A DNA stretch of 64,000 bases, from contig NZ_NBYX01000004.1 of the NCBI RefSeq assembly GCF_002099195.1, forward strand, positions 186,064-250,063, in the 5' to 3' direction. The position numbers were made by a program, and so were the translations under genes. The stretch comes from Burkholderia puraquae (GTDB lineage Bacteria; Pseudomonadota; Gammaproteobacteria; Burkholderiales; Burkholderiaceae). The notes beneath the pieces are model-generated. The model saw nothing but the letters and a program-made list of their open reading frames with translations, did no database searches and was not told where the DNA came from. Shown here piece by piece: positions 2,670 through 56,489 of the stretch (position 1 is its first letter; every line of letters begins with the position of its first letter).

Positions 2670-2739
2670 ACACCAGTGAAGCCGCCCCAAGCGGCCCCGA
2701 GACTTGGCCGAAGCGGCCGGACCGAAGGACTTCACGCAC

Positions 2740-5700
2740 ATGACGAGTTTCCCGACTGCGCTGCATCACCGAATCCGCGAACTGGCGCGCATCGCGCCTG
2801 ACGCACCCGCCATCGCGGCCCCTTTCCAGAATGGCTTGCGCCTGTCGCGCGGCGCGCTCGATGCGCGGGCGTCGCGGCTGGCCCGGCAACTGCGCGCGGC
2901 CGGCGTCGGTGCGGAAGTGCGGGTCGGCGTGTGCGTCGAGCGCTCGTGCGAACTGTTCGTCGCGCTGCTGGCCGTGCTGAAGGCGGGCGGTGTGTTCGTG
3001 CCGCTCGATCCGCGTCATCCGGCCGCACGCCTCGACTGGATCGTCCAGGATGCACGGTTGCGGCACGGGATCGTCGACGCGGCCGGCCGCGCGGCGCTCG
3101 GCAAGCCGTTCGAACACGCGTTCGACGCGGCAGCCGAAGCGGCGCACGGGCAGGAGATCGCCGCGGACGACGAAGCGGTGCCCGTTCATCCGCGTTCGGC
3201 CGCCTACATGATCTATACGTCGGGTTCGACCGGCACGCCGAAGGCCGTCGTCGTCGAACACGGGCCGCTCGCCGCGCACTGCGATGCGCTCGCGGCCGCG
3301 CTGCCGATCGAGGCCGGCGACCGCCTGCTGCATTTCGCATCGGTCAATTTCGATGCCGCGCACGAATGCTGGCTGGCACCGCTCGCGATTGGCGCGAGCA
3401 TCGTCGTGGCGCCGCCGCAGCCGTTCGCGCCGGATGCCGCGCATGCGCTGATGGCGAGTGAATCGGTCAACGTGGCCGCGTTCCCGCCCGCGTACCTGCG
3501 CGAATTCGCGGCGGTGGCCGCGCGCGATGGCGTGCCGCCGGCACTGCGCGTGCTCGCGTTCGGCGGCGAAGCGCTGCCGCAGCAGGCGTTCGAATTCGTG
3601 CGCCGCACGTTCCCGTCGGTACGCCTGATCAACGGTTACGGGCCGACCGAGGCCGTCATTTCGCCGATGCTGTGGCCGGTCGAGCCGGGTGAGACGCCCG
3701 TGCTGGCCGACGACGACGCGTATGCGTCGTTGCCGATCGGCCGTGTGATCGGCCCGCGCGTTGCGCGTGTCGACGGCGCCTCGGACGACGGCTCGGGCGA
3801 GTTGCTGCTCGGCGGCGTCTGCGTTGCACGCGGTTATCACGGCCGTCCGGCCTTGACGGCCGAACGCTTCATTCCCGATGCCGACGGCGAACCCGGCGCG
3901 CGCGTGTACCGCACCGGCGACCTCGCACGGCTGCGCGACGACGGCGCATTCGACTATCTCGGCCGCCTCGACGATCAGGTCCAGGTGCGCGGCGTGCGCG
4001 TGGAGCCCGCGGAAATCGCCGCGTGCCTGCGTTCGCATCCGGCCGTGGCCGACGCGGCCGTGGTTGCCGAAACCGGCAACGGGCCGACGCGGCTGATCGC
4101 GTGCGTCGCGCTGCGCGCGGCGGCCGACGATGTCGCGCTCAAAGCGCACGTGGCTGCGCAACTGCCGGCCGCATGGCAGCCGCACCGGTTCGTGCGTTGC
4201 GATGCACTGCCGTATACGCTGAACGGCAAGATCGACCGTGCCGCGCTGCGCGAGAAGATTGCCGCCACGCGTGACACCGCGCAAGGTAGCGGCGACGCAC
4301 CGCGCACGCCGACCGAACGGCAGCTCGCCGGCCTCTGGCAGGCACTGCTCGGCCTCGACGTCGCGCCGTCGCGCGATGACCGATTCTTTGCGCTGGGCGC
4401 GGATTCTCTCGCTGCGATGCAACTGCAGGCCGCGATCCGCGCCACAGTACGCGTGAACCTGCGGCTCGATACGCTGTTCGCCGATCCGTCGCTCTTCGAA
4501 CTGGCCGAGGCGGTCGATCATGCGGAACGCGAAACCGGCGAACCGCTGGCCGCGATTACCGTGCGCCGTGCGACTGCCGATGTGGCCGAGGCGGCCGCGC
4601 CGCACGTCGATCGTGCCGCATCGCTCGCGCAACAACGTTTCTGGGTGCTCGCACAAACGCGTGATGCGAGCGCTGCATATCACATCGCCGCGCACTGGAC
4701 GATCGACGGCACGCTCGATCGCGCTGCGCTGCAGCGCGCGCTCGATCACGTGATCGGCCGGCACGAGGCGTGGCGTACGACGCTCGTCGACAACGACGAC
4801 GGCGTGGTCATGCAGCGGATTCATGCGCATCTGCCGGTGTCGATCGTCGACGTCGACCTGCGCGACCAGCCGCCGGCTGCGCGCGACGCGCAAGCCGCGC
4901 GTCTCGCCGAGCGCGACGCGGCCGAACCGTTCGACCTCGCACGCGGCCCGCTGCTGCGCGCGACGCTGGTCGCACTCGCCGACGACCGTCACCGCCTGCT
5001 GTTGACCGCGCATCACGCGATCACCGACGGCTGGAGCTCGCGCTGTGCGTTCGACGAATTGTCGGCCGCCTATCGCGCATACGCCGAAGGCCGCGAACCG
5101 TCGCTGCCCGAACTGCCGATCCAGTACGCCGACTATGCAGACTGGCAGCGCGACATGCTGGCCGGCGGCGAAGGTGAACGTCAGCTCGACTACTGGCGCG
5201 GCGCGTTGCGTGACGTGCCGGGCCCGCTCGCGCTGCCGGTCGATCGTCAGCCGGGGGCGGTACGCACGCTGCAGGGCGCGCGCGTGTCGGTACGGCTGCC
5301 CGACGCGGTCGCGGCCGACGTGCGGCAACTCGCGCGCGACGCGCAGGCGACCGTCTTCACGATGCTGCTGGCCGCGCTCGATGCGTGGCTGGCGCGCCTG
5401 ACCGGCGCAACGGATGTCGTCGTCGCGGTGCCGGTCGCGCATCGCCAGCGCCCCGAAACGCGCGCGCTGCTGGGCCTTTTCCTGAATACGGTCGCGCTGC
5501 GCGTGCAAGTGGCGCCGACGCTGCCGTTCCGCGCGCTCGTCGATGCGGCGCGCACGGCTGCGCTCGACGCGGTCGCGCACCAGGACGTGCCGTTCGAGCG
5601 CGTCGTCGATGCGGTGAAGCCGCCGGTCAAGCGCGGCGACGAATGGCTGCGCGTGAAATTCGCGCAGCAGTTCGATGCTCGGCACGACAGCGTGCTGCCG

Positions 5701-8700
5701 GGCGCCACGGCGGTCGCGACGCCGGGGCCCGACCTCGCAGCGCGCTTCGACTTCGCCGTGGATTTCACCGACGATGCAAACGGCATCGAACTGGTCGCGG
5801 CCTATGCGACCGACTGCATCGACGCGGACACCGCGCGCGCGTGGCTCGACAGCTATGCGGCGCTCGTCGGCTCGGCTGCGCATGATCCGCACCAAACGAC
5901 GGCCATCCTGCCGTGTGACGCGTCGGCCGCGTCGCGCCAGCCGCGCGACGGCCGTGCGCTGCGCGTCGAACACGCCGACATCGTCGCCGCGTTCGCGCGG
6001 CAGGCGGCCGCGTATCCACATCGCGTCGCGCTCGCCGATGCGTCGGCATCGCTGACGTTCGCCGAACTCGACGACGCATCGAACCGCATCGCACGCGCGC
6101 TGACCCAGCGCGGCGTGGCCGCCGAAGCGTCCGTCATCGTCTGCGTCGAACGCTCGGCGCGCTTCGTCGTCGGCCTGCTCGGCGCGCTGAAGGCCGGCGC
6201 GCTCGCCGTGCTGCTCGATCCCGCCCAACCGGCCGCGCGACTGGCCGCGGCAGCGGCCGACTGCGGCGCGCGCTGGGCGCTCGTCGCGGAGTCGGCTGCA
6301 TGGCCGGCCGGTATCGACGCACAGCCGCTCGACGTCGACACGCTTGCGCAGGACGCGACGCTCGCGCACGCGGCCGGCGTGCGTATCGCACCGCACCCGG
6401 AACAGGGCGCGTACCTGATCTATACGTCGGGCTCGACCGGCACGCCGAAGGGCGTCGTCGTGTCGCACGGCGCACTGGCCGACTACGTGCAGGGGATGCT
6501 CGACGAACTCGCGTTCGCACCGGACGCGTCGTTTGCGATGGTATCGACCGTCGCGGCCGACCTCGGCCACACGACGCTGTTCGGCGCACTGTGCGCGGGC
6601 CGCACGCTGCACCTGCTGCCGGCCGCGTGCGCGTTCGATCCGGACCTGTTCGCCGACGAAATGCGCCGCCGCGACGTTGGGGTGCTGAAGATCGTGCCGA
6701 GCCACCTGCAGGCGCTGCTCGACGCGCGCGTACCGGCCGACGTGTTGCCGCGCCACGCGCTCGTGACGGGCGGCGAAACGCTCACGTGGGCGCTCGTCGC
6801 GCGCCTGGCCGCGCTTGCGCCCGCCTGCCGCGTGATCAACCACTACGGGCCGACCGAAGCGACGGTCGGCGCGATCGCCTGCGACACGGCGTCGATCGCC
6901 GCCGATGCGCGCGATCCCGCGAGCGGTGTGCCGCTCGGCCTGCCGCTGCCCAATGCGCGCGCACTCGTGCTCGACGCGTTCGGCGCGTGCGTGCCGGCCG
7001 GCGCGACGGGTGAGCTGTATCTGGGCGGGCCGGGTGTCGCGCGCGGCTACCTGGGCCGCCCGGCGCAGACCGCCGAGCGCTTCGTGCCCGATCCGTTCAC
7101 GCCCGGTGCACGGCTGTATCGCACGGGCGACCGCGTGCGGTTGCGCGCGGACGGCCGCCTCGCGTTCCTCGGCCGTATCGACGACCAGGTGAAAATTCGC
7201 GGCTACCGCGTTGAACCGGGCGAGGTGAGTGCGGCGGTGCGCGCTGCCGGCCCGGTTGCGCAGGCCGAAACGCTCGCGATCGAACACGACGGCCGCCTGC
7301 GGCTTGCGACGTTCGTCGTGATGCGCGACGGTGCGGCATTCGACGAGGCCGCCGTGCGCGCGGCGCTTGCCGCGAAACTGCCAGACTACATGGTGCCCGC
7401 GCAGTTCGTCGCGCTCGCGCGCCTGCCGGTGACCGCGAACGGCAAGATCGATCGCGCCGCGCTGCGCGAGCTGGCGGCCGCGCCGGTCGCGAGCGCGTCC
7501 GGGAACGCACCGCAGGGTGCGGTCGAAACGGTGCTCGCCGAAGTCTGGCAGGCCGTGCTGAAGGCGCCGCAGGTCGGCCGCGACGACAATTTCTTCGAAC
7601 TCGGCGGCGATTCGATCCTCGTGCTGCAGGTGATCGCCCGGGCGCGCAAGCGCGGCGTGCGCTTCACGCCGAAGCAACTGTTCGACGGCCCAACGATCGC
7701 CGAACTCGCACGCATCGCGAAGATGGAGGACGTGGCGGCTGGCGCTGCAACTGCCGCGCAGCCGGCGGTCGCGGCCGCTGCCGGCGCGCCGGCGACGGCA
7801 CGGGTCCTGACGCCCGCGCAGCAGCGCTTCTTCGCGCTCGATATCCCGCATCCGGGCCACTGGAACCAGTCGGTTGCGTTCGACGTGCGCGGGCCGTTCG
7901 ACGCCGATGCGTTCGCGCGCGCCTTCGACGCATTGCTGACGCACCACGATGCATTCCGCCAGCGCTTCGCTCGCGGTGCGGACGGCACGTGGCACGCCAG
8001 CGACGCCGCGAAGCCGTACGATGCGCTGCCGTTCGTCGAAGTCGCCGCCCGCGACGAAGCCGACGCGCTCGCGCGCTTCGACGCGTTGCAGTGCCGTCTC
8101 GACCTCGGGCGCGGGCCGCTTGCCTGCGCATGCGCGGCACGCTTGCCGGACGGTTCGACGCAGCTCTATCTCGCCATTCACCATGCGATCGTCGACGGCG
8201 TGTCGTGGCGCATCCTGCTCGACGACCTGGATACGGCCTACCGTGCCGCATGCGAACGCACGCCGGTCCGGCTGCCGCAGCCGGGCCTGCGCGCGGATGC
8301 ATGGGCGTCGCGACTCGCACGCGCGGCGACGGAACCGGCATCGCCGTTCGTGGCCGAAGCTGCGTACTGGGCCGGCATGGCGCAGGGCGGCGACGTCGTG
8401 CCCGATCATCCCGACGCAGCGGCGACGAACGCCGATGCGGCCGTCGTCGTGCAGACGATCGACGCGGCATTGACCCGCGCGGCGCTGACCGATGCGCATG
8501 CGGCCTATCGCACGCAGACGATCGAACTGCTGGGCGCGGCGCTCGCACTGGCACTGGCCGGCGCGAGCGGTGCCGCATCGTGCCGTGTCGAGCTGGAAGG
8601 GCATGGCCGCGAGGCGCTGTTCGACGATGCCGATGCCAGCCGCACGATCGGTTGGCTGACGAGCCATTACCCGGTGGTGCTGCCGGTCGCGGCCACTGCG

Positions 8701-30764: not shown

Positions 30765-30949
30765 CGGGCGCGGCACGGCACGCACCGTGTCGAAACAGTG
30801 GAACAGGGCAGGCGGGCGGCATGGCGGCGGCCAGCAGACAGGTAACGCATGACGGATCGGGCGAAGCCCGCGCGGACGCGGGCGGAATGCGCACCCCATC
30901 CGTCCCCCGCGGATCGGGCGTTCGGCGAGCGTCGGGCTCGCCCCTTGCG

Positions 30950-31128
30950 TCGGCCGGTATCCGGGCTGGCCGCTTGCCGGGCCGCAGCCTTCCCGCCCGG
31001 CTGAAGGGCAGTGGCATCGTGGGCGGCCTGGGCGCGTGCGCGGGGAAGCGCGGCGCGCGGGCGGCGTACCGTTGCGGGGACAGCACAGGCCGGGCGGTGG
31101 TCCGCCTCCTGTTTCCCGTTTAACTGCA
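30950..31128 (-). ncRNA. Cobalamin riboswitch controlling cobA-cobE-cobO-cobB
   Basis: Read on the minus strand, the element starts with GTTAAACGGGAAACAGGAGG (31124-31105), then has CTGTCCCCGCAACGG and GCCACTGCCC. It ends in the B12 box AGCCCGGATACCGGCC (30967-30952). These are the conserved blocks of the AdoCbl riboswitch in the right order. High cobalamin should shut the operon down. Confidence 0.93.
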
Positions 31129-31377
31129 CGCGCGGAATGCGCATGCGAGCACCGAACGCGGCGCATACGATAGCACAGCGTGCATCGGGCGCGGGGCCGG
31201 CGAACCGCGCCCGCATTCGTTCGGAACCCGATCCGGGGGCGATGCATTGCGCAGTCGTAAATTGGCGTGCAATCATCTGGCCGGAGTCACAAGCAAGGCT
31301 CAGTTTCGTGCTGCCGGTCGCACGAGCCTGACGAAATCCATACCAAAATCGGCTCGCTCTGCCGGACCTGCAGGGCG
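31129..31377. other. Intergenic region upstream of the EAL gene
   Basis: Holds the promoter of the riboswitch on the minus strand and presumably that of the EAL phosphodiesterase on the plus strand. No clear consensus elements could be fixed by eye. A weak open frame continues upstream of 31378 from GTG 31267 but lacks membrane-protein or coding character. Confidence 0.4.
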
Positions 31378-32967: not shown

Positions 32968-33074
32968 GCATCTGGACCGAAAAGCCGGCCGCGACGCGCG
33001 CTCTGCCTTGACGCTCCCCGCACCGCCGCCTACACTCGCACGCGTTTTGGTGCTCGCGCGCGCCGCTCCGGCGT

Positions 33075-33288
33075 GCGCAGTTAAACGGGAAACAGGAAGC
33101 CTGCCTGCGCCGCAGTCGAGCCAACCTGTGCTGCCCCCGCAACGGTAAGCGAACGTGTCGCGCGCAGCGCGATGCAGCGCCGCTTCGCCGCCTGCCTCGT
33201 GCAGGCGGACGACCGCCACTGGATGCCGCGCGCATCCGGGAAGGCGAAGCGGCGTGTTCGTCAGCCCGGATACCGGCCTAAACGTTGG
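33075..33288 (+). ncRNA. Cobalamin riboswitch controlling the cobW-cobN-chlI/D operon
   Basis: GTTAAACGGGAAACAGGAAG near the 5' end (from 33080), then CTGCCCCCGCAACGGTAAG, GCCACTGG at 33215, and the B12 box AGCCCGGATACCGGCC at 33263-33278. The first and last blocks are the same as in the riboswitch of the cobA operon, while the middle differs. About 195 bases separate it from the first small ORF. Confidence 0.93.
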
Positions 33289-33483
33289 GGTTCAGCGCCG
33301 CGGGGAGGCGGCGCATCGTCCACGGCCGCAGCAGGCCCGACGCCCGCGTGTCGTCCGTTTCCGCCGCCGATCTGCCCCTGCGCGAACCCGCGCGGGCCGG
33401 CAGGGCGAACGGCAGGCGGCGCGAGCCGGGCCGGCGGCAGCCGTGTTGGCATTCACGATGTCGACCGTTCGCAAGGAAGCACC
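33289..33483 (+). other. Leader between riboswitch and small ORF
   Basis: About 195 bases of extremely GC-rich leader with many possible stems. It is the natural place for the expression platform of the riboswitch. No gene is supported in it. Confidence 0.4.
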
Positions 33484-33625: not shown

Positions 33626-34714
33626 ATGACCCTACGCAAGCTTCCCGTCACGATCGTCACGGGCTTTCTCGGCAGCGGCAAGACGACGCTGATGCGCCAC
33701 ATCCTGCAGCACGCCGAAGGCCGCCGCATCGCGGTGATCGTCAACGAATTCGGCGAACTCGGCATCGACGGCGAAATCCTCAAGGGCTGCGGCATCGGCT
33801 GCGAGGATGCCGACGGCGCGCAGGGCGAAGCGTCGGGCCAGCTGTACGAACTCGCGAACGGCTGCCTGTGCTGCACCGTGCAGGAAGAGTTCTACCCGGT
33901 GATGGAAGCGCTCGTCGAGCGCCGCGCGGACATCGACCACGTGCTGATCGAGACGTCGGGCCTCGCGCTGCCTAAGCCGCTCGTGCAGGCGTTCAACTGG
34001 CCGACGATCCGCAACAGCTTCACGGTCGACGCGGTCGTGACCGTCGTCGACGGGCCGGCCGCCGCGAGCGGCCAGTTCGCGGAAAACCCGCAGGCCGTCG
34101 ACGCGCAGCGCCGCGCCGATCCGAACCTCGACCACGAATCGCCGCTGCACGAGCTGTTCGCCGATCAACTGTCGTCCGCCGATCTCGTGATCGTGAACAA
34201 GGCCGATCTCGTCGGCGCGGCCGAATTCGCGCAGATCGAAACCGCGATCCGCGACGAGATCCCGCCGCAGGTGAAGATCGTGCGCGCGACGCGCGGCGAG
34301 CTCGACCTCGCGATGCTGCTCGGCCTCGAATCGGCATCGGAAGAAACGATCCACCTGCGTCACGACCATCATGGCTCGGCCGACGACGGCGACCACGATC
34401 ACCATCACGACGATTTCGACTCGGTGGTCGTGTCGGGCGACGCCGGTACGCGCGAAGCGACGATCGCCGCGCTGCAGCGCGTCGTCGAAGCGCATACGAT
34501 CTATCGCGCGAAGGGCTTCGCCGCGCTGCCCGGCGCGCCGATGCGGCTCGTGATCCAGGGCGTCGGCCGCCGCTTCGACAGCTATTTCGATCGTCGCTGG
34601 CAGGACGGCGAAGCGCGCACGAGCCGCTTCGTGCTGATCGGCGAGGATCTCGACGCAGCCGCGCTGCAACGCGCGTTCGACGCCGCGTGCGCGGCCGAAC
34701 CGCAACAGGCGTAA
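33626..34714 (+). CDS. cobW: CobW-type G3E GTPase, cobalt/zinc chaperone
   Basis: A 362-residue P-loop GTPase. It shows Walker A GFLGSGKTTLM near residue 11, the metal-binding CLCC motif (NGCLCCTVQ) near residue 78, ETSGLALP, and the base-recognition NKADL near residue 191. A His/Asp-rich stretch (RHDHHGSADDGDHDHHHDD) near residues 246-264 precedes the C-terminal CobW_C domain. It likely delivers cobalt for insertion into hydrogenobyrinate diamide by the CobN complex encoded next door. It lies six bases before cobN and behind a B12 riboswitch, which favours a true cobalamin role over a zinc-homeostasis one. Confidence 0.93.
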   Translation: MTLRKLPVTIVTGFLGSGKTTLMRHILQHAEGRRIAVIVNEFGELGIDGEILKGCGIGCEDADGAQGEASGQLYELANGCLCCTVQEEFYPVMEALVERRADIDHVLIETSGLALPKPLVQAFNWPTIRNSFTVDAVVTVVDGPAAASGQFAENPQAVDAQRRADPNLDHESPLHELFADQLSSADLVIVNKADLVGAAEFAQIETAIRDEIPPQVKIVRATRGELDLAMLLGLESASEETIHLRHDHHGSADDGDHDHHHDDFDSVVVSGDAGTREATIAALQRVVEAHTIYRAKGFAALPGAPMRLVIQGVGRRFDSYFDRRWQDGEARTSRFVLIGEDLDAAALQRAFDAACAAEPQQA

Positions 34715-34720
34715 CGCACG

Positions 34721-37700
34721 ATGCATTTGCTGCGCACCACGCCAGGCGGCTTCGTCGACGATACGCAGGGCGTCGTCCGGATCGACCAGCAGCCGGCCGA
34801 CATCGTGATCCTGAGCTCGGCCGACACGACACTGTCGCTGCTCGCGAGCGTCGTACCGCACCTGCCGGCCGGCTTCCCGAGCGTGCGGCTCGCGAACGTC
34901 ACGTTCCTGCGGCAGCCGGCGTCGGTCGATTTCTACGTCGACGACGTGCTGCGGCACGCGAAGTCGGTCGTGATCGATCATCTCGGCGGCGAGGCGTACT
35001 GGCCGTACGGGATCGAGCAGGCCGTGTCGCTCGCGTCGAAGCGCAGGCAGCAGCTCGCGATGTTCTCGGGCGACCTGCAGGAAGACCCGAACCTCGTCGC
35101 GAAGAGCACCGTCGCGCCCGAGCTGTGCCGGCTGTGGTGGCGCTATCTGCGTGAAGGCGGCGTGCACAACGCCGAGGCGCTGCTGCGCAGCATTGCATTC
35201 CACACACTCGGGTTCGGCGACGAACCCGAACTGCCGCGCCCGCTGCCCGCCGCCGCGCTGTATCACCCGGCGCGCGACCGCGCGAGCGTCGACGACTGGC
35301 GGCCGCGCTGGACGCCCGGCGCGCCCGTCGTCGCGATCCTGTTCTATCGCGCGCACTGGCAGGCCGCGAACACGGCCGTGTTCGACGCGCTGGCCGATGC
35401 GCTCATCGAGGAAGGGCTGAATCCGCTGCCGATCGCGGTCACGTCGCTGAAGGACGCGGTGAGCCGCGAAGTCATCACGCAGCTCTGCGACACGCACGAG
35501 GTCGCGCTCGTGCTGAACACGACCGCGTTCGCGGCCGGCGCGATCGACCGCCCCGAACACGACGTGCTCGCCGGTGACGCACCGGTATTGCAGGTGATCC
35601 TGTCCGGCGGCAATCGCGACGCGTGGGTGGCCGACAACCAGGGCCTGCATGCGCGCGATATCGCAATGCATATCGCGCTGCCCGAGGTCGACGGCCGCAT
35701 CGTCACGCGCGCGGTGAGCTTCAAGGGGCTCGCGTACCGCTGCCCGCACACCGAGGTCGACGTCGTGCGCTACCAGCCGGACGCCGAGCGGATCGCGTTC
35801 GTCGCGGCGCTCGCGCGCGGCTGGTGCCGGCTGCGCACGCTCGACAATGCCGACAAGCGCGTCGCGCTGATTCTCGCGAACTATCCGCAAAGCGAAGGGC
35901 GGATCGGCAACGGCGTCGGGCTCGACACGCCGGCGTCCGCGCTGCGCGTGCTCGCGGCGCTGCGCGACGCGGGCTATGCGGTGGCCGACCTGCCGCCCGA
36001 CGGCGACGCGCTGATCGCGCGGCTCACCGAAGGCGTGACCAACGACGCAGCCGTGCATGCGCTGCGTCCCGCATTCCAGAGCTTCCCGCTGGCCGACTAT
36101 GTCGCGCGTTTCGCGCGGCTGCCGGCCGCCGTGCGCGACGCGCTGAACGAACGCTGGGGCCCGCCCGAGGCCGACCCGACACTGCGGCAAGGACGTTTCA
36201 CGATCGCCGGCTGGCGCGCGGGCAACGTGTTCGTCGGCATCCAGCCGTCGCGCTCACGCGGCGAGAACGACTACGCGAGCTACCACGACGCGGATCTCGT
36301 GCCGCCGCATGCGTATCTCGCGTTCTATTTCTGGCTGCGCGACGCGTATCGCATCGACGCGGTCATCCATCTCGGCAAGCACGGCAACCTCGAATGGCTG
36401 CCGGGCAAGAGCGTCGCGCTGTCCGATGCGTGCTGGCCCGACCTGACGCTCGGGCCGCTGCCGCACCTCTATCCGTTCATCGTCAACGATCCGGGCGAGG
36501 GCAGCCAGGCGAAGCGCCGCGCGCAGGCCGTGATCATCGATCACCTGATGCCGCCGCTCACGCGTGCGGAAAACTACGGCCCGCTGCAGGATCTCGAGCG
36601 GCAGGTCGACGAATACTACGAAGCGCTGATGGTCGATGCGCGGCGCGCGAAGCTGCTGCGCAAGACGATCCTCGCAACGATCGCCGAGCACCGGCTGCAT
36701 GACGAGCTGAGCGTATCGCCGCCGCGCGACGCGGGCGACGAGGATGCGCTGCTCACGCGCGTCGACGCATGGCTGTGCGAACTGAAGGAAGCGCAGATTC
36801 GCGACGGGCTGCATGTGTTCGGGGTATCGCCTGCCGAGCGTCAGCGCCGCGACACGCTGCTCGCGCTCGCGCGCTTTCCGGCCGGCGACGGCAAGGGCGC
36901 ACGGGCAGGATTGATCGGCGCGCTCGCGCGCGATCTCGGGCTCGGCGATGATTTCGATCCGCTCGCGGCCGACTGGGCCGCGCCGTGGGCCGGGCCGCGC
37001 CCGGCGATCCTGCAGGCGAGCGACGCATCGCCGTGGCGCCATGCGGGCGATACGCGCGAACGGCTCGAGCGGCTCGCTCAGCAATGGCTGGACGGGCTGT
37101 GTGCAGCCGACGGCGGCAACGCGGGCACCGATGCGACGCCCCCCGGCGACTGGCCGCACACGCTCGCCGTGATCGAGCGCGTCCGCGCAACGCTGCTGCC
37201 CGCACTCGACGCGTGCGGCGGCGAGGAAATGCGTCAGCTGCTGCGCGGGCTCGACGGCCGCTTCGTGCCGCCGGGGCCGAGCGGCTCGCCGTCGCGTGGC
37301 CGCCCCGACGTGCTGCCGACCGGCCGCAATTTCTACTCGGTCGACACGCGCGCGGTGCCGACCCAGGCCGCGTGGACGCTCGGCCTGAAATCCGCGCAGC
37401 AACTGATCGAGCGCCATCTGCAGGATCACGGCGACTATCCGCGTGCGATCGGCCTGTCCGTCTGGGGCACCGCGACGATGCGCACGGGCGGCGACGACAT
37501 CGCGCAGGCGTTCGCGCTGCTCGGCGTGCGGCCGAAATGGGCGCACGGCAGCCACCGCGTGACCGACTTCGAGATCCTGCCGATCGAGATCTTCGACCGG
37601 CCGCGCATCGACGTCACGCTGCGCGTGTCGGGCTTCTTCCGCGATGCGTTCCCGAACCTGATGCACCTGTTCGACGCGGCCGTGCAGGCAGTGGCCGCAC

Positions 37701-38530
37701 TCGACGAGCCCGAGACGCTGAACCCGATCCGCGCGCGCATCGAGCGCGAACACGCGAAATGGGTCACGCAGGGCGTGGCACCGGACGAAGCGCGGCGCCG
37801 CGCCGGCTGGCGCGTATTCGGCGCGCGGCCGGGCAGCTACGGCGCGGGCCTGCAGGACCTGATCGACCAGCGCCGCTGGCAGAGCGACGCCGATCTCGCC
37901 GATGCATACCGCCAGTGGGGCGGCCATGCGTATGCGCAGAACAGCGCGGGCGATGCCGCGGCCGACGTGTTCGGCGAGCGGCTCGCAACGATCGACGTCG
38001 TCGTGCAGAACCAGGACAGCCGCGAGCACGACATCCTCGATTCGAACGACTACTACCAGTTCCAGGGCGGGATGACGGCGGCCGTGCGGCACCTGTCCGG
38101 GCAGCAGCCGAGCATCTACCACGGCGATCACGCCAACCCGGTCGCGCCGAAGATGCGCACGCTGCGCGAGGAGATCGCACGCGTGATCCGCTCGCGCGTC
38201 GTCAACCCGAAATGGCTCGACGGCGTGAAGCGCCACGGCTACAAGGGCGCGGCCGAGATGGCGGCGACCGTCGACTACCTGTACGGCTATGACGCGACCG
38301 CGCGCGTGCTGTCGGACCACCAGTACGCGCTCGTGGCCGACGCGTACCTGTTCGACGATGCCACCCGCGCGTTCCTCGAACGGCACAACCCGAAGGCGCT
38401 GCACGGCATCTGCGAACGCTTCGTCGAGGCGATGCAGCGCGGGCTGTGGCAGCAGCCGGGCGACTATCGCGAGCGGATCGAAGCGGTCTGGCTCGCGAGC
38501 GAACAACTCCAGGAAGGGGGACGGCGATGA
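34721..38530 (+). CDS. cobN: Aerobic cobaltochelatase large subunit
   Basis: A 1269-residue protein of the CobN/BchH family, the subunit that binds the corrin and inserts Co2+ in an ATP-dependent complex with two AAA+-type partners. Recognisable segments include IQPSRSRGENDYASYHD, IHLGKHGNLEWLPGKSVAL near residue 550, GRNFYSVDTRAVPTQAAW near 867 and LDSNDYYQFQGGM near 1107. Length and order are normal for CobN. The stop overlaps the start of the ChlI-like gene (ATGA). The partners here are ChlI/ChlD-like rather than CobS/CobT. Confidence 0.95.
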   Translation: MHLLRTTPGGFVDDTQGVVRIDQQPADIVILSSADTTLSLLASVVPHLPAGFPSVRLANVTFLRQPASVDFYVDDVLRHAKSVVIDHLGGEAYWPYGIEQAVSLASKRRQQLAMFSGDLQEDPNLVAKSTVAPELCRLWWRYLREGGVHNAEALLRSIAFHTLGFGDEPELPRPLPAAALYHPARDRASVDDWRPRWTPGAPVVAILFYRAHWQAANTAVFDALADALIEEGLNPLPIAVTSLKDAVSREVITQLCDTHEVALVLNTTAFAAGAIDRPEHDVLAGDAPVLQVILSGGNRDAWVADNQGLHARDIAMHIALPEVDGRIVTRAVSFKGLAYRCPHTEVDVVRYQPDAERIAFVAALARGWCRLRTLDNADKRVALILANYPQSEGRIGNGVGLDTPASALRVLAALRDAGYAVADLPPDGDALIARLTEGVTNDAAVHALRPAFQSFPLADYVARFARLPAAVRDALNERWGPPEADPTLRQGRFTIAGWRAGNVFVGIQPSRSRGENDYASYHDADLVPPHAYLAFYFWLRDAYRIDAVIHLGKHGNLEWLPGKSVALSDACWPDLTLGPLPHLYPFIVNDPGEGSQAKRRAQAVIIDHLMPPLTRAENYGPLQDLERQVDEYYEALMVDARRAKLLRKTILATIAEHRLHDELSVSPPRDAGDEDALLTRVDAWLCELKEAQIRDGLHVFGVSPAERQRRDTLLALARFPAGDGKGARAGLIGALARDLGLGDDFDPLAADWAAPWAGPRPAILQASDASPWRHAGDTRERLERLAQQWLDGLCAADGGNAGTDATPPGDWPHTLAVIERVRATLLPALDACGGEEMRQLLRGLDGRFVPPGPSGSPSRGRPDVLPTGRNFYSVDTRAVPTQAAWTLGLKSAQQLIERHLQDHGDYPRAIGLSVWGTATMRTGGDDIAQAFALLGVRPKWAHGSHRVTDFEILPIEIFDRPRIDVTLRVSGFFRDAFPNLMHLFDAAVQAVAALDEPETLNPIRARIEREHAKWVTQGVAPDEARRRAGWRVFGARPGSYGAGLQDLIDQRRWQSDADLADAYRQWGGHAYAQNSAGDAAADVFGERLATIDVVVQNQDSREHDILDSNDYYQFQGGMTAAVRHLSGQQPSIYHGDHANPVAPKMRTLREEIARVIRSRVVNPKWLDGVKRHGYKGAAEMAATVDYLYGYDATARVLSDHQYALVADAYLFDDATRAFLERHNPKALHGICERFVEAMQRGLWQQPGDYRERIEAVWLASEQLQEGGRR

Positions 38531-39603
38531 CCGATCCGACGACGCACCGCGCGCGCGCGGTTTTTCCGTTTGCGGCGCTCGTCGCGCAGGACGCGTTGCA
38601 GCAGGCGCTGCTGCTCGCCGCGATCGACCCGTCGCTGGGCGGCGTGCTCGTGAGCGGGCCGCGCGGCACCGCGAAATCGACCGCGGCGCGCGGCCTCGCG
38701 GAGCTGTTGCCTGAAGGGCAGTTCGTCACGCTGCCGCTGTCGGCGAGCGACGAGCAGGTGACGGGTACGCTCGATCTCGCGCATGCACTCGCCGAAAGCG
38801 GCGTGCGTTTCCGGCCGGGGCTGCTCGCGAGGGCGCATCTCGGCGTGCTGTATGTCGACGAAGTGAACCTGCTCGCCGACGGGCTCGTCGATACGCTGCT
38901 CGACGTCGCCGCGAGCGGCGTGAATATCGTCGAGCGCGATGGCGTGTCGCACGCGCACGATGCGCGCTTCGTGCTGGTCGGCACGATGAATCCCGAGGAG
39001 GGCGAGCTGCGGCCGCAACTGCTCGATCGATTCGGGCTGATGGTCGAACTGGAGAACTGCTTCGACGCCATGCAGCGCGAGCGGATCGTGAAGGCGCGGC
39101 TTGCATTCGATCTCGATCCGGACGCGTTCCGCGCACGTCATGCCTCTGCACAACGCGAACTCGGCGACCGGATTCACGCGGCACGCGCCCGGCTCGCGGC
39201 ACTCGATTTCGACGACGCAGTCCATGCACGCGTCAGCGCGCTGTGCATCGACGCGGCCGTCGACGGGCTGCGTGCCGATCTCGTGATGCTGCGCGCCGCG
39301 CGCGCACTGGCCGCGCTGGAGCAGGCCGATGCGGTGACGGTGTCGCATGTGGCGCGTGTGGCCGAGGCGGTTCTTCGGCATCGGCGCCATGCGGGCTCGC
39401 CGCCATCGCCCAGTTCGTCGCAACAAAACAGCGAACGCGACGGTCGCGCTCCGCCCGATGCACGCGAGCACCCCGACGATCGATCGGGCGCGGCGAAGGA
39501 CGATGCCGCGGCAGCTCAGGGCGATTGGGGCTACCTGCCGCCCGAGCCGGCCGGGCTGCACGACGTGAAAGGCGTGGTGCCGCTACCGCTAAAAAAACGC
39601 TGA
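38527..39603 (+). CDS. ChlI-like AAA+ ATPase, small chelatase subunit (zero-frame product)
   Basis: A 358-residue AAA+ protein of the magnesium-chelatase ChlI/BchI type. Walker A GPRGTAKSTAARG is at residues 44-56, Walker B GVLYVDEVNLLADG near 113, GTMNPEEGELRPQLLDRFG near 155. An Asp/Ser/Pro-rich linker fills the last 60 residues before PLPLKKR and the stop. It should assemble with CobN as the ATP-driven motor of cobalt insertion. GGAAGGGGG precedes its ATG, which overlaps the cobN stop by four bases. The linker resembles the one joining AAA+ and VWA domains in ChlD. The gene ends at a strong -1 frameshift signal, so this is probably one of two products. Confidence 0.9.
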   Translation: MTDPTTHRARAVFPFAALVAQDALQQALLLAAIDPSLGGVLVSGPRGTAKSTAARGLAELLPEGQFVTLPLSASDEQVTGTLDLAHALAESGVRFRPGLLARAHLGVLYVDEVNLLADGLVDTLLDVAASGVNIVERDGVSHAHDARFVLVGTMNPEEGELRPQLLDRFGLMVELENCFDAMQRERIVKARLAFDLDPDAFRARHASAQRELGDRIHAARARLAALDFDDAVHARVSALCIDAAVDGLRADLVMLRAARALAALEQADAVTVSHVARVAEAVLRHRRHAGSPPSPSSSQQNSERDGRAPPDAREHPDDRSGAAKDDAAAAQGDWGYLPPEPAGLHDVKGVVPLPLKKR

Positions 39604-40280
39604 GCCATCGAGCCGGCGCTGCCGCGAACGCCGTTCGCGGTCCTCGATGGCAATCAGGCGCAGCCGCGCGCGTGCCGGGTACGGCACGCACCGGCACGGC
39701 CGTGGCGTGGCCGGCAACGCTCGCCGCGAAACGCGGCGGCCTGCTGCATCGCGGCCATCTGCGTTTCCGGAAACGTGCCGGCACGCCGCACGCACTGCAT
39801 TGCTTCGTGCTCGACTGCTCGGCGTCGATGCTGTCGCACGAGCGGCTCGCATTGGCGAAGGGGCTGATCGTTGCGTATTTCGACCAGGCCGCGCGCGACC
39901 GTGTCGAAACCGCGCTGATCTGCTTCGGCGGCAACGGCGCCGCGCGGCGCTTCGGCCCGGCCGTGCCGCGCTGGTGGAATGCTCGCTGGCTCGAACCGGT
40001 CGAGGGCGGCGGCGGCACGCCGCTCGCGGACGGCATCGCGGCCGCCGCACAGCTGCTCGCGCGCGCGGCGCGGCGCGAGCCCGGCAAGCAGCGCTGGCTG
40101 TGGGTGCTGTCCGACGGGCGCACGCGCGAGACGCCCGCGAAACCCGCGGCGGCCGATCACATCGTGTTCGTCGACTTCGACGATGCGGCCGTACGGATCG
40201 GGCAGGGCGCGCGGCTGGCCGCGGCGTGGGGCGCGCAGTGGGTAACGGCCGACGCGTTGTGCACGGGCCGCGCCGGCTGA
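38527..40280 (+). CDS. ChlD-like chelatase subunit made by -1 frameshift (AAA+ plus linker plus VWA)
   Basis: If ribosomes slip back one base at the A7 run 39591-39597, reading continues as KKTLSHRAG into the frame that ends at 40280, giving about 584 residues. The added part is the von Willebrand A domain of ChlD-type medium subunits: AWPATLAAKRG, then the MIDAS motif DCSASM near nt 39813, GGGGTPLADG and LSDGRTRE. The whole has the AAA+/acidic linker/VWA order and near-normal length of ChlD. Only CobN would then be needed to complete the chelatase, with the unshifted ChlI-like form as small subunit. No separate small-subunit gene is in the window. Confidence 0.7.
39591..39651 (+). promoter_or_regulatory. 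Programmed -1 ribosomal frameshift signal
   Basis: Slippery A AAA AAA lies at 39591-39597 in zero-frame phase CTA AAA AAA CGC TGA. A six-base spacer follows. A hairpin begins at 39604: an outer perfect 9-bp stem GCCATCGAG (39604-39612) with CTCGATGGC (39643-39651), and an inner perfect 8-bp stem CCGCGAAC (39622-39629) with GTTCGCGG (39633-39640). The zero-frame stop is directly behind the site. Confidence 0.75.
39597..40280 (+). CDS. VWA-domain coding segment of the ChlD-like subunit (-1 frame)
   Basis: About 227 residues, the 3' part of the frameshifted gene. It carries a complete MIDAS metal site: DxSxS as DCSASM, the Thr of GGTPL and the Asp of LSDGRT. Annotated alone it lacks a convincing start: the first ATG falls inside the MIDAS motif. 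The best alternative is GTG 39672 with only a weak AGGCG upstream. Independent translation from that GTG would give a 202-residue VWA protein and cannot be excluded. Confidence 0.7.
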   Translation, partial: TLSHRAGAAANAVRGPRWQSGAAARVPGTARTGTAVAWPATLAAKRGGLLHRGHLRFRKRAGTPHALHCFVLDCSASMLSHERLALAKGLIVAYFDQAARDRVETALICFGGNGAARRFGPAVPRWWNARWLEPVEGGGGTPLADGIAAAAQLLARAARREPGKQRWLWVLSDGRTRETPAKPAAADHIVFVDFDDAAVRIGQGARLAAAWGAQWVTADALCTGRAG

Positions 40281-56088: not shown

Positions 56089-56169
56089 CGGGGTACCGGG
56101 ACAGTGTCGCGCCGCGGCCAACGCATCGGTACACCCCGCCCGACGCCGACTGGCACGCACGCACTTTCT

Positions 56170-56332
56170 GGCCGGCAGGTCTCCTGGCTGACAGGTCGGC
56201 GCCGGCTCCCGGCCTTCCCGGTGGAACCAGTGGCATGAGGGGGAGATCGGCTCGCTGTCTACAGTTGCGGGGGCAGCCACAGCGGCGCGTGGCGCGCCCT
56301 GTGTTCCCTCTTCGGCCCCGAAGGGCACCGGC
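56170..56332 (-). ncRNA. Cobalamin riboswitch controlling cobG-cobH-cobI-cbiG/cobJ
   Basis: On the minus strand: GGTGCCCTTCGGGG, AGGGAACACAGGGCG, CTGCCCCCGCAACTGTAG, GCCACTGG at about 56234, and the B12 box AGCCAGGAGACCTGCC at 56189-56174. This is closer to the general AdoCbl riboswitch consensus than the other two copies, whose B12 box reads AGCCCGGATACCGGCC. Confidence 0.95.
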
Positions 56333-56489
56333 GAACGAACGGCCGTAGGATACCCGATTTTCGCAACGATCCGGCATCGGCGATGCGTCGCACAACCGCG
56401 TCGCAGCACGGCCGCAGCCGCTTTTGAGCTATCTCGCAAATGGTACGATTGGCGGCTCGACACCCGATCGGCGACCGCCGGCATCCGCT

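Follow-up and report, generated by a model that had tools for sequence, protein, structure and literature searches.

The E. coli gene dnaX, which is unrelated to chlD, yields two subunits of one complex by a -1 frameshift on A_AAA_AAG with a downstream hairpin, the frameshift product being the shorter one. Frameshifting chlD genes (fs-chlD) of cobalamin producers were reportedly treated by Antonov in 2020. Frameshifting of -1 in chlD is already known: a 2013 publication reported it for a gene cluster that includes Burkholderia, and the case described here is not new in kind.

In the 2013 article, 23 frameshifted magnesium chelatase genes form a cluster that shifts by -1 and spans six genera, Burkholderia among them (Antonov et al., 2013, PMC3711429). 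When three of its cassettes, carrying 11, 9, and 7 A, were assayed in E. coli, frameshifting amounted to 63, 40, and 10%, respectively; the last one has the slip site A_AAA_AAA, and the species of origin are not given with these values (PMC3711429). For cobalamin producers with fs-chlD and cobN, the frameshift was proposed to yield the small and the medium subunit, and fs-chlD without cobN is described in the same paper (Kuznetsov et al., 2022, PMC9227772). In a review, the entry "Magnesium chelatase: also regulatory?" lists A_AAA_AAR as being under purifying selection, with strong downstream structure potential, and the sequence of the structure as not strongly conserved (Atkins et al., 2016, PMC5009743).

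The locus studied here is a chlD gene of Burkholderia puraquae, contained in a stretch of DNA of 64,000 nucleotides (the window). It carries the traits of the fs-chlD family: a ChlI-like ORF followed by a VWA domain in the -1 frame, A_AAA_AAR in shift phase near the zero-frame stop, a covarying downstream RNA stem as putative stimulator, and an adjacent cobN. An earlier note made from the sequence alone had read the junction as a programmed -1 frameshift giving both the small and the medium subunit for CobN, and had stated that chlD frameshifting is reported in other cobalamin producers. Based on sequence, conservation, constraint at the RNA level, gene order, and co-occurrence, we assign a probability of about 0.93 to the reading that this is the fs-chlD of an aerobic cobaltochelatase, whose frameshift would give an ATPase and an ATPase-VWA subunit acting with CobN.

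For the B. puraquae copy we infer co-transcription, slippage at some rate, its stimulation by the hairpin, and subunit function along the following lines. Ribosomes reaching the TGA at 39601 would release a 358-aa ChlI-like ATPase as the small subunit. On A_AAA_AAA, with AAA codons in the P and A sites, a fraction would slip by -1, presumably aided by the hairpin that starts 6 nt further on, and would continue through the VWA domain; the resulting ATPase-VWA protein would be the medium subunit. The two subunits would assemble with CobN, which is encoded just 5' behind a cobalamin riboswitch.

Gene order and encoded protein parts

The features are compiled in Table 1. The positions that the earlier note had given for the A7 run and its phase, the TGA, the hairpin with its stems, and the -1 frame are correct to the base.

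Table 1. Features at and around the chlD junction (positions in the window), with a CobS/CobT-like gene pair elsewhere in the genome (positions in its own locus)
Feature	Position	Strand	Basis
Cobalamin riboswitch, 5' of the cobW-cobN-chlD run	33031..33295	+	Rfam RF00174, 54.9 bits vs gathering score 31.5
cobW	33626..34714	+	TIGR02475, 484.5 bits, above cut-off
cobN, large cobaltochelatase subunit	34721..38530	+	TIGR02257, 1585 bits, above cut-off
Zero-frame ORF, ChlI-like AAA ATPase, predicted small subunit, 358 aa	38527..39603	+	Translation; Mg_chelatase and AAA_lid_2 above cut-off
Slippery heptamer A_AAA_AAA	39591..39597	+	Sequence; A_AAA_AAR in 144/144 distinct junctions
-1 frame after the slip, linker and VWA, predicted C-terminal part of medium subunit	39597..40280	+	Translation; VWA_2 above cut-off
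Zero-frame stop TGA, one codon past the slip site	39601..39603	+	Spacing kept in 144/144: 143 TGA, 1 TAG
Outer stem, 5' arm	39604..39612	+	Pairing, cross-locus comparison, covariation
Inner stem, 5' arm	39622..39629	+	Pairing, covariation
Inner stem, 3' arm	39633..39640	+	Pairing, covariation
Outer stem, 3' arm	39643..39651	+	Pairing, cross-locus comparison, covariation
CobS-like and CobT-like genes, L116 (G000:C25:60000-72000)	4968-6365 and 6371-8083		531.8 and 280.7 bits, both below NCBI cut-offs

The TGA of cobN overlaps the ATG at 38527 of the chlD zero-frame ORF by 4 nt. On its other side, chlD is flanked by a DUF188 gene; the opposite strand carries cobB and a uroporphyrinogen-III methyltransferase gene in the vicinity. 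The genome holds one copy of cobN, the one adjoining fs-chlD. Three cobalamin riboswitches were found in the 64-kb window, at 30935-31172 (minus strand, 42.5 bits), 33031-33295 (plus strand, 54.9 bits), and 56157-56347 (minus strand, 102 bits).

The zero-frame ORF ends in CTA AAA AAA CGC TGA. It contains the stretches GPRGTAKST and LYVDEVNLL, which we take to be Walker A and Walker B, and its top relatives of solved structure are ChlI and the 38-kDa Mg-chelatase subunit. From 39597, the -1 frame reads TLSHR and continues for 227 aa up to the TGA at 40278-40280. In line with the earlier note, a VWA domain is found there, with the motifs DCSAS, GGGTP, and SDGR, which we take to be of the MIDAS type; the part also resembles the 60-kDa Mg-chelatase subunit 2x31 (E 1.7e-07). 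Its nearest named relatives among the 80 kept of 179 relatives from a similarity scan are those of Burkholderia lata and B. aenigmatica, with 96% identity. Matches below cut-off were obtained for both chlD parts with TIGR02442 and TIGR02031, and for the ATPase part also with TIGR02030. The CobS and CobT models TIGR01650 and TIGR01651 gave no match to either part at E 0.001.

Slip site and stop in related loci

AAAAAAR has 10 matches (6 runs) in the window compared to 0.89 expected from shuffles, so the heptamer by itself proves little. The comparison drew on 182 loci that resemble the VWA part: 80 named loci from the scan, 62 from genomes of the genus (the window's own included), and 40 from the family. 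The genus search covered 65 genomes, 63 with a match and two without; 62 were examined and one (G050), with its match near a contig edge, was left out. Dropping identical 600-nt stretches gave 144 distinct junctions, among which near-identical strains stay and the source sets overlap; as the sequences are related by descent, the junction and hairpin counts are not independent events.

The junction, that is the slip run in shift phase with a stop one codon later, was present in 176 of the 182 loci and missing in six, as judged by a junction finder that presupposes A_AAA_AAR. The slip phase is kept in all 144 distinct junctions, a count which is meaningful only because similarity in the VWA part had guided the choice of loci and the six failures were inspected. 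With the same signals in 176 of 182 loci, the "unusually clean signals" that the earlier note saw in this copy turned out to be usual for the family. The run is AAAAAAA in 142 distinct junctions and AAAAAAG in two. The codon preceding the Lys pair encodes one of seven amino acids (Leu, Ala, Val, Pro, Ser, Thr, or Ile) and ends in A in all 144 junctions, where about 7 would be expected from upstream codon use in the same genes. By pattern search, Walker A and B are present in 144 of 144, the MIDAS motif DxSxS in 140, the T/S motif in 142, and the D motif in 136.

The six loci without the junction are distant relatives in which one uninterrupted frame of 558 to 702 aa encloses the VWA match. In five of them, the Walker and MIDAS motifs lie within this frame; in the sixth (L211, 558-aa open frame) the pattern gave no Walker match and a joined ATPase-VWA protein is not established. 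Another 22 loci from the family, order, and class (L220-L241), which lie outside the 182, comprise five with a slip site between the frames (L220, L223, L225, L226, and L227), eight with the two domains in one frame, and nine left unclassed by the motif search. The single-frame relatives support the view that the joined ATPase-VWA product is a real protein. Among the distant class relatives, L225 has a longer slip run of 10 A, and L226 and L227 have an A7-G run and a second A run about 45 nt downstream.

Relatives with both domains in one frame would equally be expected if a former single chlD had been split by an indel, through decay or a sequencing error. The same junction, however, recurs in 176 of 182 loci with largely intact Walker and MIDAS-type motifs, a conservation that speaks decisively against decay and leaves this explanation with a practically negligible probability. 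Slippage of RNA polymerase along the A run, which would join the frames at the RNA level through mRNAs of altered length, usually requires longer runs, whereas the run here counts 7 A in 142 of 144 junctions and 6 in two. Being homopolymeric, it does reach 10 A in L225, and cassettes with 9 and 11 A have been published (PMC3711429). The covarying downstream hairpin and the fixed spacing of the stop suit ribosomes better than polymerase, and transcriptional slippage appears very improbable. In our judgment the chlD junction at 39591-39651 very probably serves as a site of programmed -1 frameshifting, and the joining of a ChlI-like ATPase to a VWA domain by such a shift, as first put forward in the earlier note, finds support in the comparative tests.

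The downstream hairpin

The hairpin (39604-39651) starts 6 nt past the A7 run, separated by the spacer CGCTGA (39598-39603), and in the window copy forms 9 of 9 bp in the outer and 8 of 8 bp in the inner stem. The earlier note had suggested comparing the run and both stems across orthologues. Leaving out one locus with a run of N (L149), all nine outer pairs were found in 123 of 143 distinct loci, eight in 14, and seven in six, so one or two pairs are lost in 20; shuffled segments reached nine outer pairs in 1.3%, with a slightly freer search. In 43 diverse sequences, 95.1% of the outer-stem cells are paired compared to 21.7 to 50.7% with the partner slid by 1-3 columns. The covariation score of this stem in the same set is 0.348 versus 0.168 after shuffling, with none of 500 shuffles as high, and double changes occur at six of its nine pairs. 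The inner stem covaries as well, but is less general (73.2% of cells). Loss of the slip phase or of the stems with both ORFs remaining, which would have spoken against a programmed shift, was not seen; both are kept.

A His codon in the 5' arm and an Arg codon in the 3' arm are both present in 134 of 144 rows, where the combinations are CAT/CGA (125), CAC/CGG (7), CAT/CGG (2), and CAC/CGA (0). CGA is the 3'-arm codon in 127 of 137 cases, whereas its share among the Arg codons in the rest of these genes is 4.1%. Because the two codons change together synonymously and CGA is in excess, protein coding does not fully account for the outer stem. Synonymous covariation offers a direct handle on the role of the hairpin; no report of it for the chlD stem was found in the literature searched, which consisted mostly of papers outside subscription.

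Folding energy was rejected as evidence. The window hairpin has a z of -1.79, with 11 of 200 dinucleotide shuffles equal or better, and 275 of 500 random synonymous recodings match or beat its stability; it is modestly low in energy compared to shuffles and ordinary for its protein and codon use. Across 14 loci with 500 recodings each, less than 4% were as stable in five loci and more than half in three, in a test of a fixed 57-nt stretch that truncates longer hairpins such as that of L203. The signal is revealed by conservation rather than by folding energy or the heptamer. At L205 (G098:C1:59228-61540), the VWA match falls in two pieces, yet a slip junction and a long hairpin are present.

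Two further candidate elements were not retained. For a pseudoknot between the 5' loop side and the 3' flank, the helix score averaged 15.1 versus 14.6 (sd 0.14) when partners were exchanged between loci, where none of 100 shuffles attained the observed mean, and 13.6 with shuffled flanks; the excess is small, the helices span only 3 bp in several clades, and no pseudoknot is claimed. An SD-like 4-mer (GGGG included) lies within 25 nt upstream of the slip site in 98 of 144 junctions. In the window, some 18 nt before the slip site, it coincides with a pair of codons for K and G that recurs in relatives, and an SD-like stimulator is not claimed either. Since the stem is conserved at the RNA level and the gene stands in a cobalamin operon, we see a small chance that the hairpin is a regulated stimulator, whose stability a metal ion or a pathway signal might alter and with it the small/medium ratio.

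The two ORFs overlap, which is compatible with translational coupling, and the VWA protein might be started on its own, either at a codon such as GTG 39672 or coupled to the stop at 39601. Some start codon does occur in the searched -1-frame stretch in 136 of 144 loci, and when the SD pattern was relaxed and the stretch extended, 32 had a start accompanied by an SD-like 4-mer. However, in eight loci the region that begins 300 nt upstream and ends shortly before the MIDAS contains neither ATG nor GTG nor TTG, 96 loci lack an ATG in the searched stretch, and 129 have no start properly spaced from GGAG, AGGA, or GAGG. The GTG at 39672 exists, as the earlier note had pointed out in finding no good start for the VWA part, and recurs at this offset in just 37 of 144 loci. 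A separate start would also leave the A run and the covarying stem unexplained, and we consider it highly unlikely compared to frameshifting.

Partners of CobN and comparison with described systems

The subunit role of fs-chlD had to be argued because the genome also holds the CobS/CobT-like pair of Table 1, located on a different contig from cobN and close to an iron-sulfur protein gene. A second, remoter CobS/CobT-like pair occurs in the same genome (L117, G000:C57:213000-220000; 2691-4217 and 4225-5925; 121.5 and 107.6 bits). Besides fs-chlD, the ChlI model found no second match across the genome; a CobS-like gene on another contig scores below cut-off.

Frameshifting might be real and CobN might nevertheless use the CobS/CobT-like pair, with the chlD products serving elsewhere. 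In an even family sample of 249 genomes, cobN is above cut-off in 121, and 44 of these have a long CobS-like match; such matches are, however, equally common without cobN (47 genomes; odds ratio 0.98, p 1.0), and 77 cobN genomes lack them. Strong VWA matches, by a cut of our own choice (E 3.4e-42 or better) that ranks G098 as weak despite its junction (L205), lie within cobN genomes in 112 of 112 cases, and the remaining nine cobN genomes have weaker matches; 63 of the 112 were taken into the junction analysis. In the window, fs-chlD is moreover directly 3' of cobN. Use of the CobS/CobT-like pair by CobN is therefore unlikely.

Across the family, cobN co-occurs with fs-chlD and not with the CobS-like gene, which makes fs-chlD the likelier source of subunits than the CobS/CobT-like pair, although co-occurrence does not demonstrate function. 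Most likely, fs-chlD is the source of both the small and the medium cobaltochelatase subunit. This role, claimed in the earlier note, agrees with the proposal given by Kuznetsov et al. (PMC9227772) and fits the gene order, the riboswitch, and the co-occurrence with cobN.

The locus offers a strong natural example of how programmed frameshifting can occur in an ordinary metabolic gene, and purifying selection can be seen in the nucleotide sequence itself. Compared to E. coli dnaX, the likeness lies in the slip site, the downstream hairpin, and two subunits from one gene; the predicted frameshift product is the longer one here. The cluster of Antonov et al. (PMC3711429) shares with this locus the same genes, the shift direction, the A_AAA_AAA slip site, and the genus Burkholderia. 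Kuznetsov et al. (PMC9227772) likewise have a chlD frameshift with cobN and the two-subunit proposal; here, a CobS/CobT-like pair coexists, whose distribution across the family shows no dependence on cobN. In contrast to the structure sequence as characterized in the entry of Atkins et al. (PMC5009743), the outer stem is well conserved and covarying in the loci compared here. Overall, this is a well-supported case of a known system, unsurprising to a recoding specialist, for which the evidence from conservation is strong.
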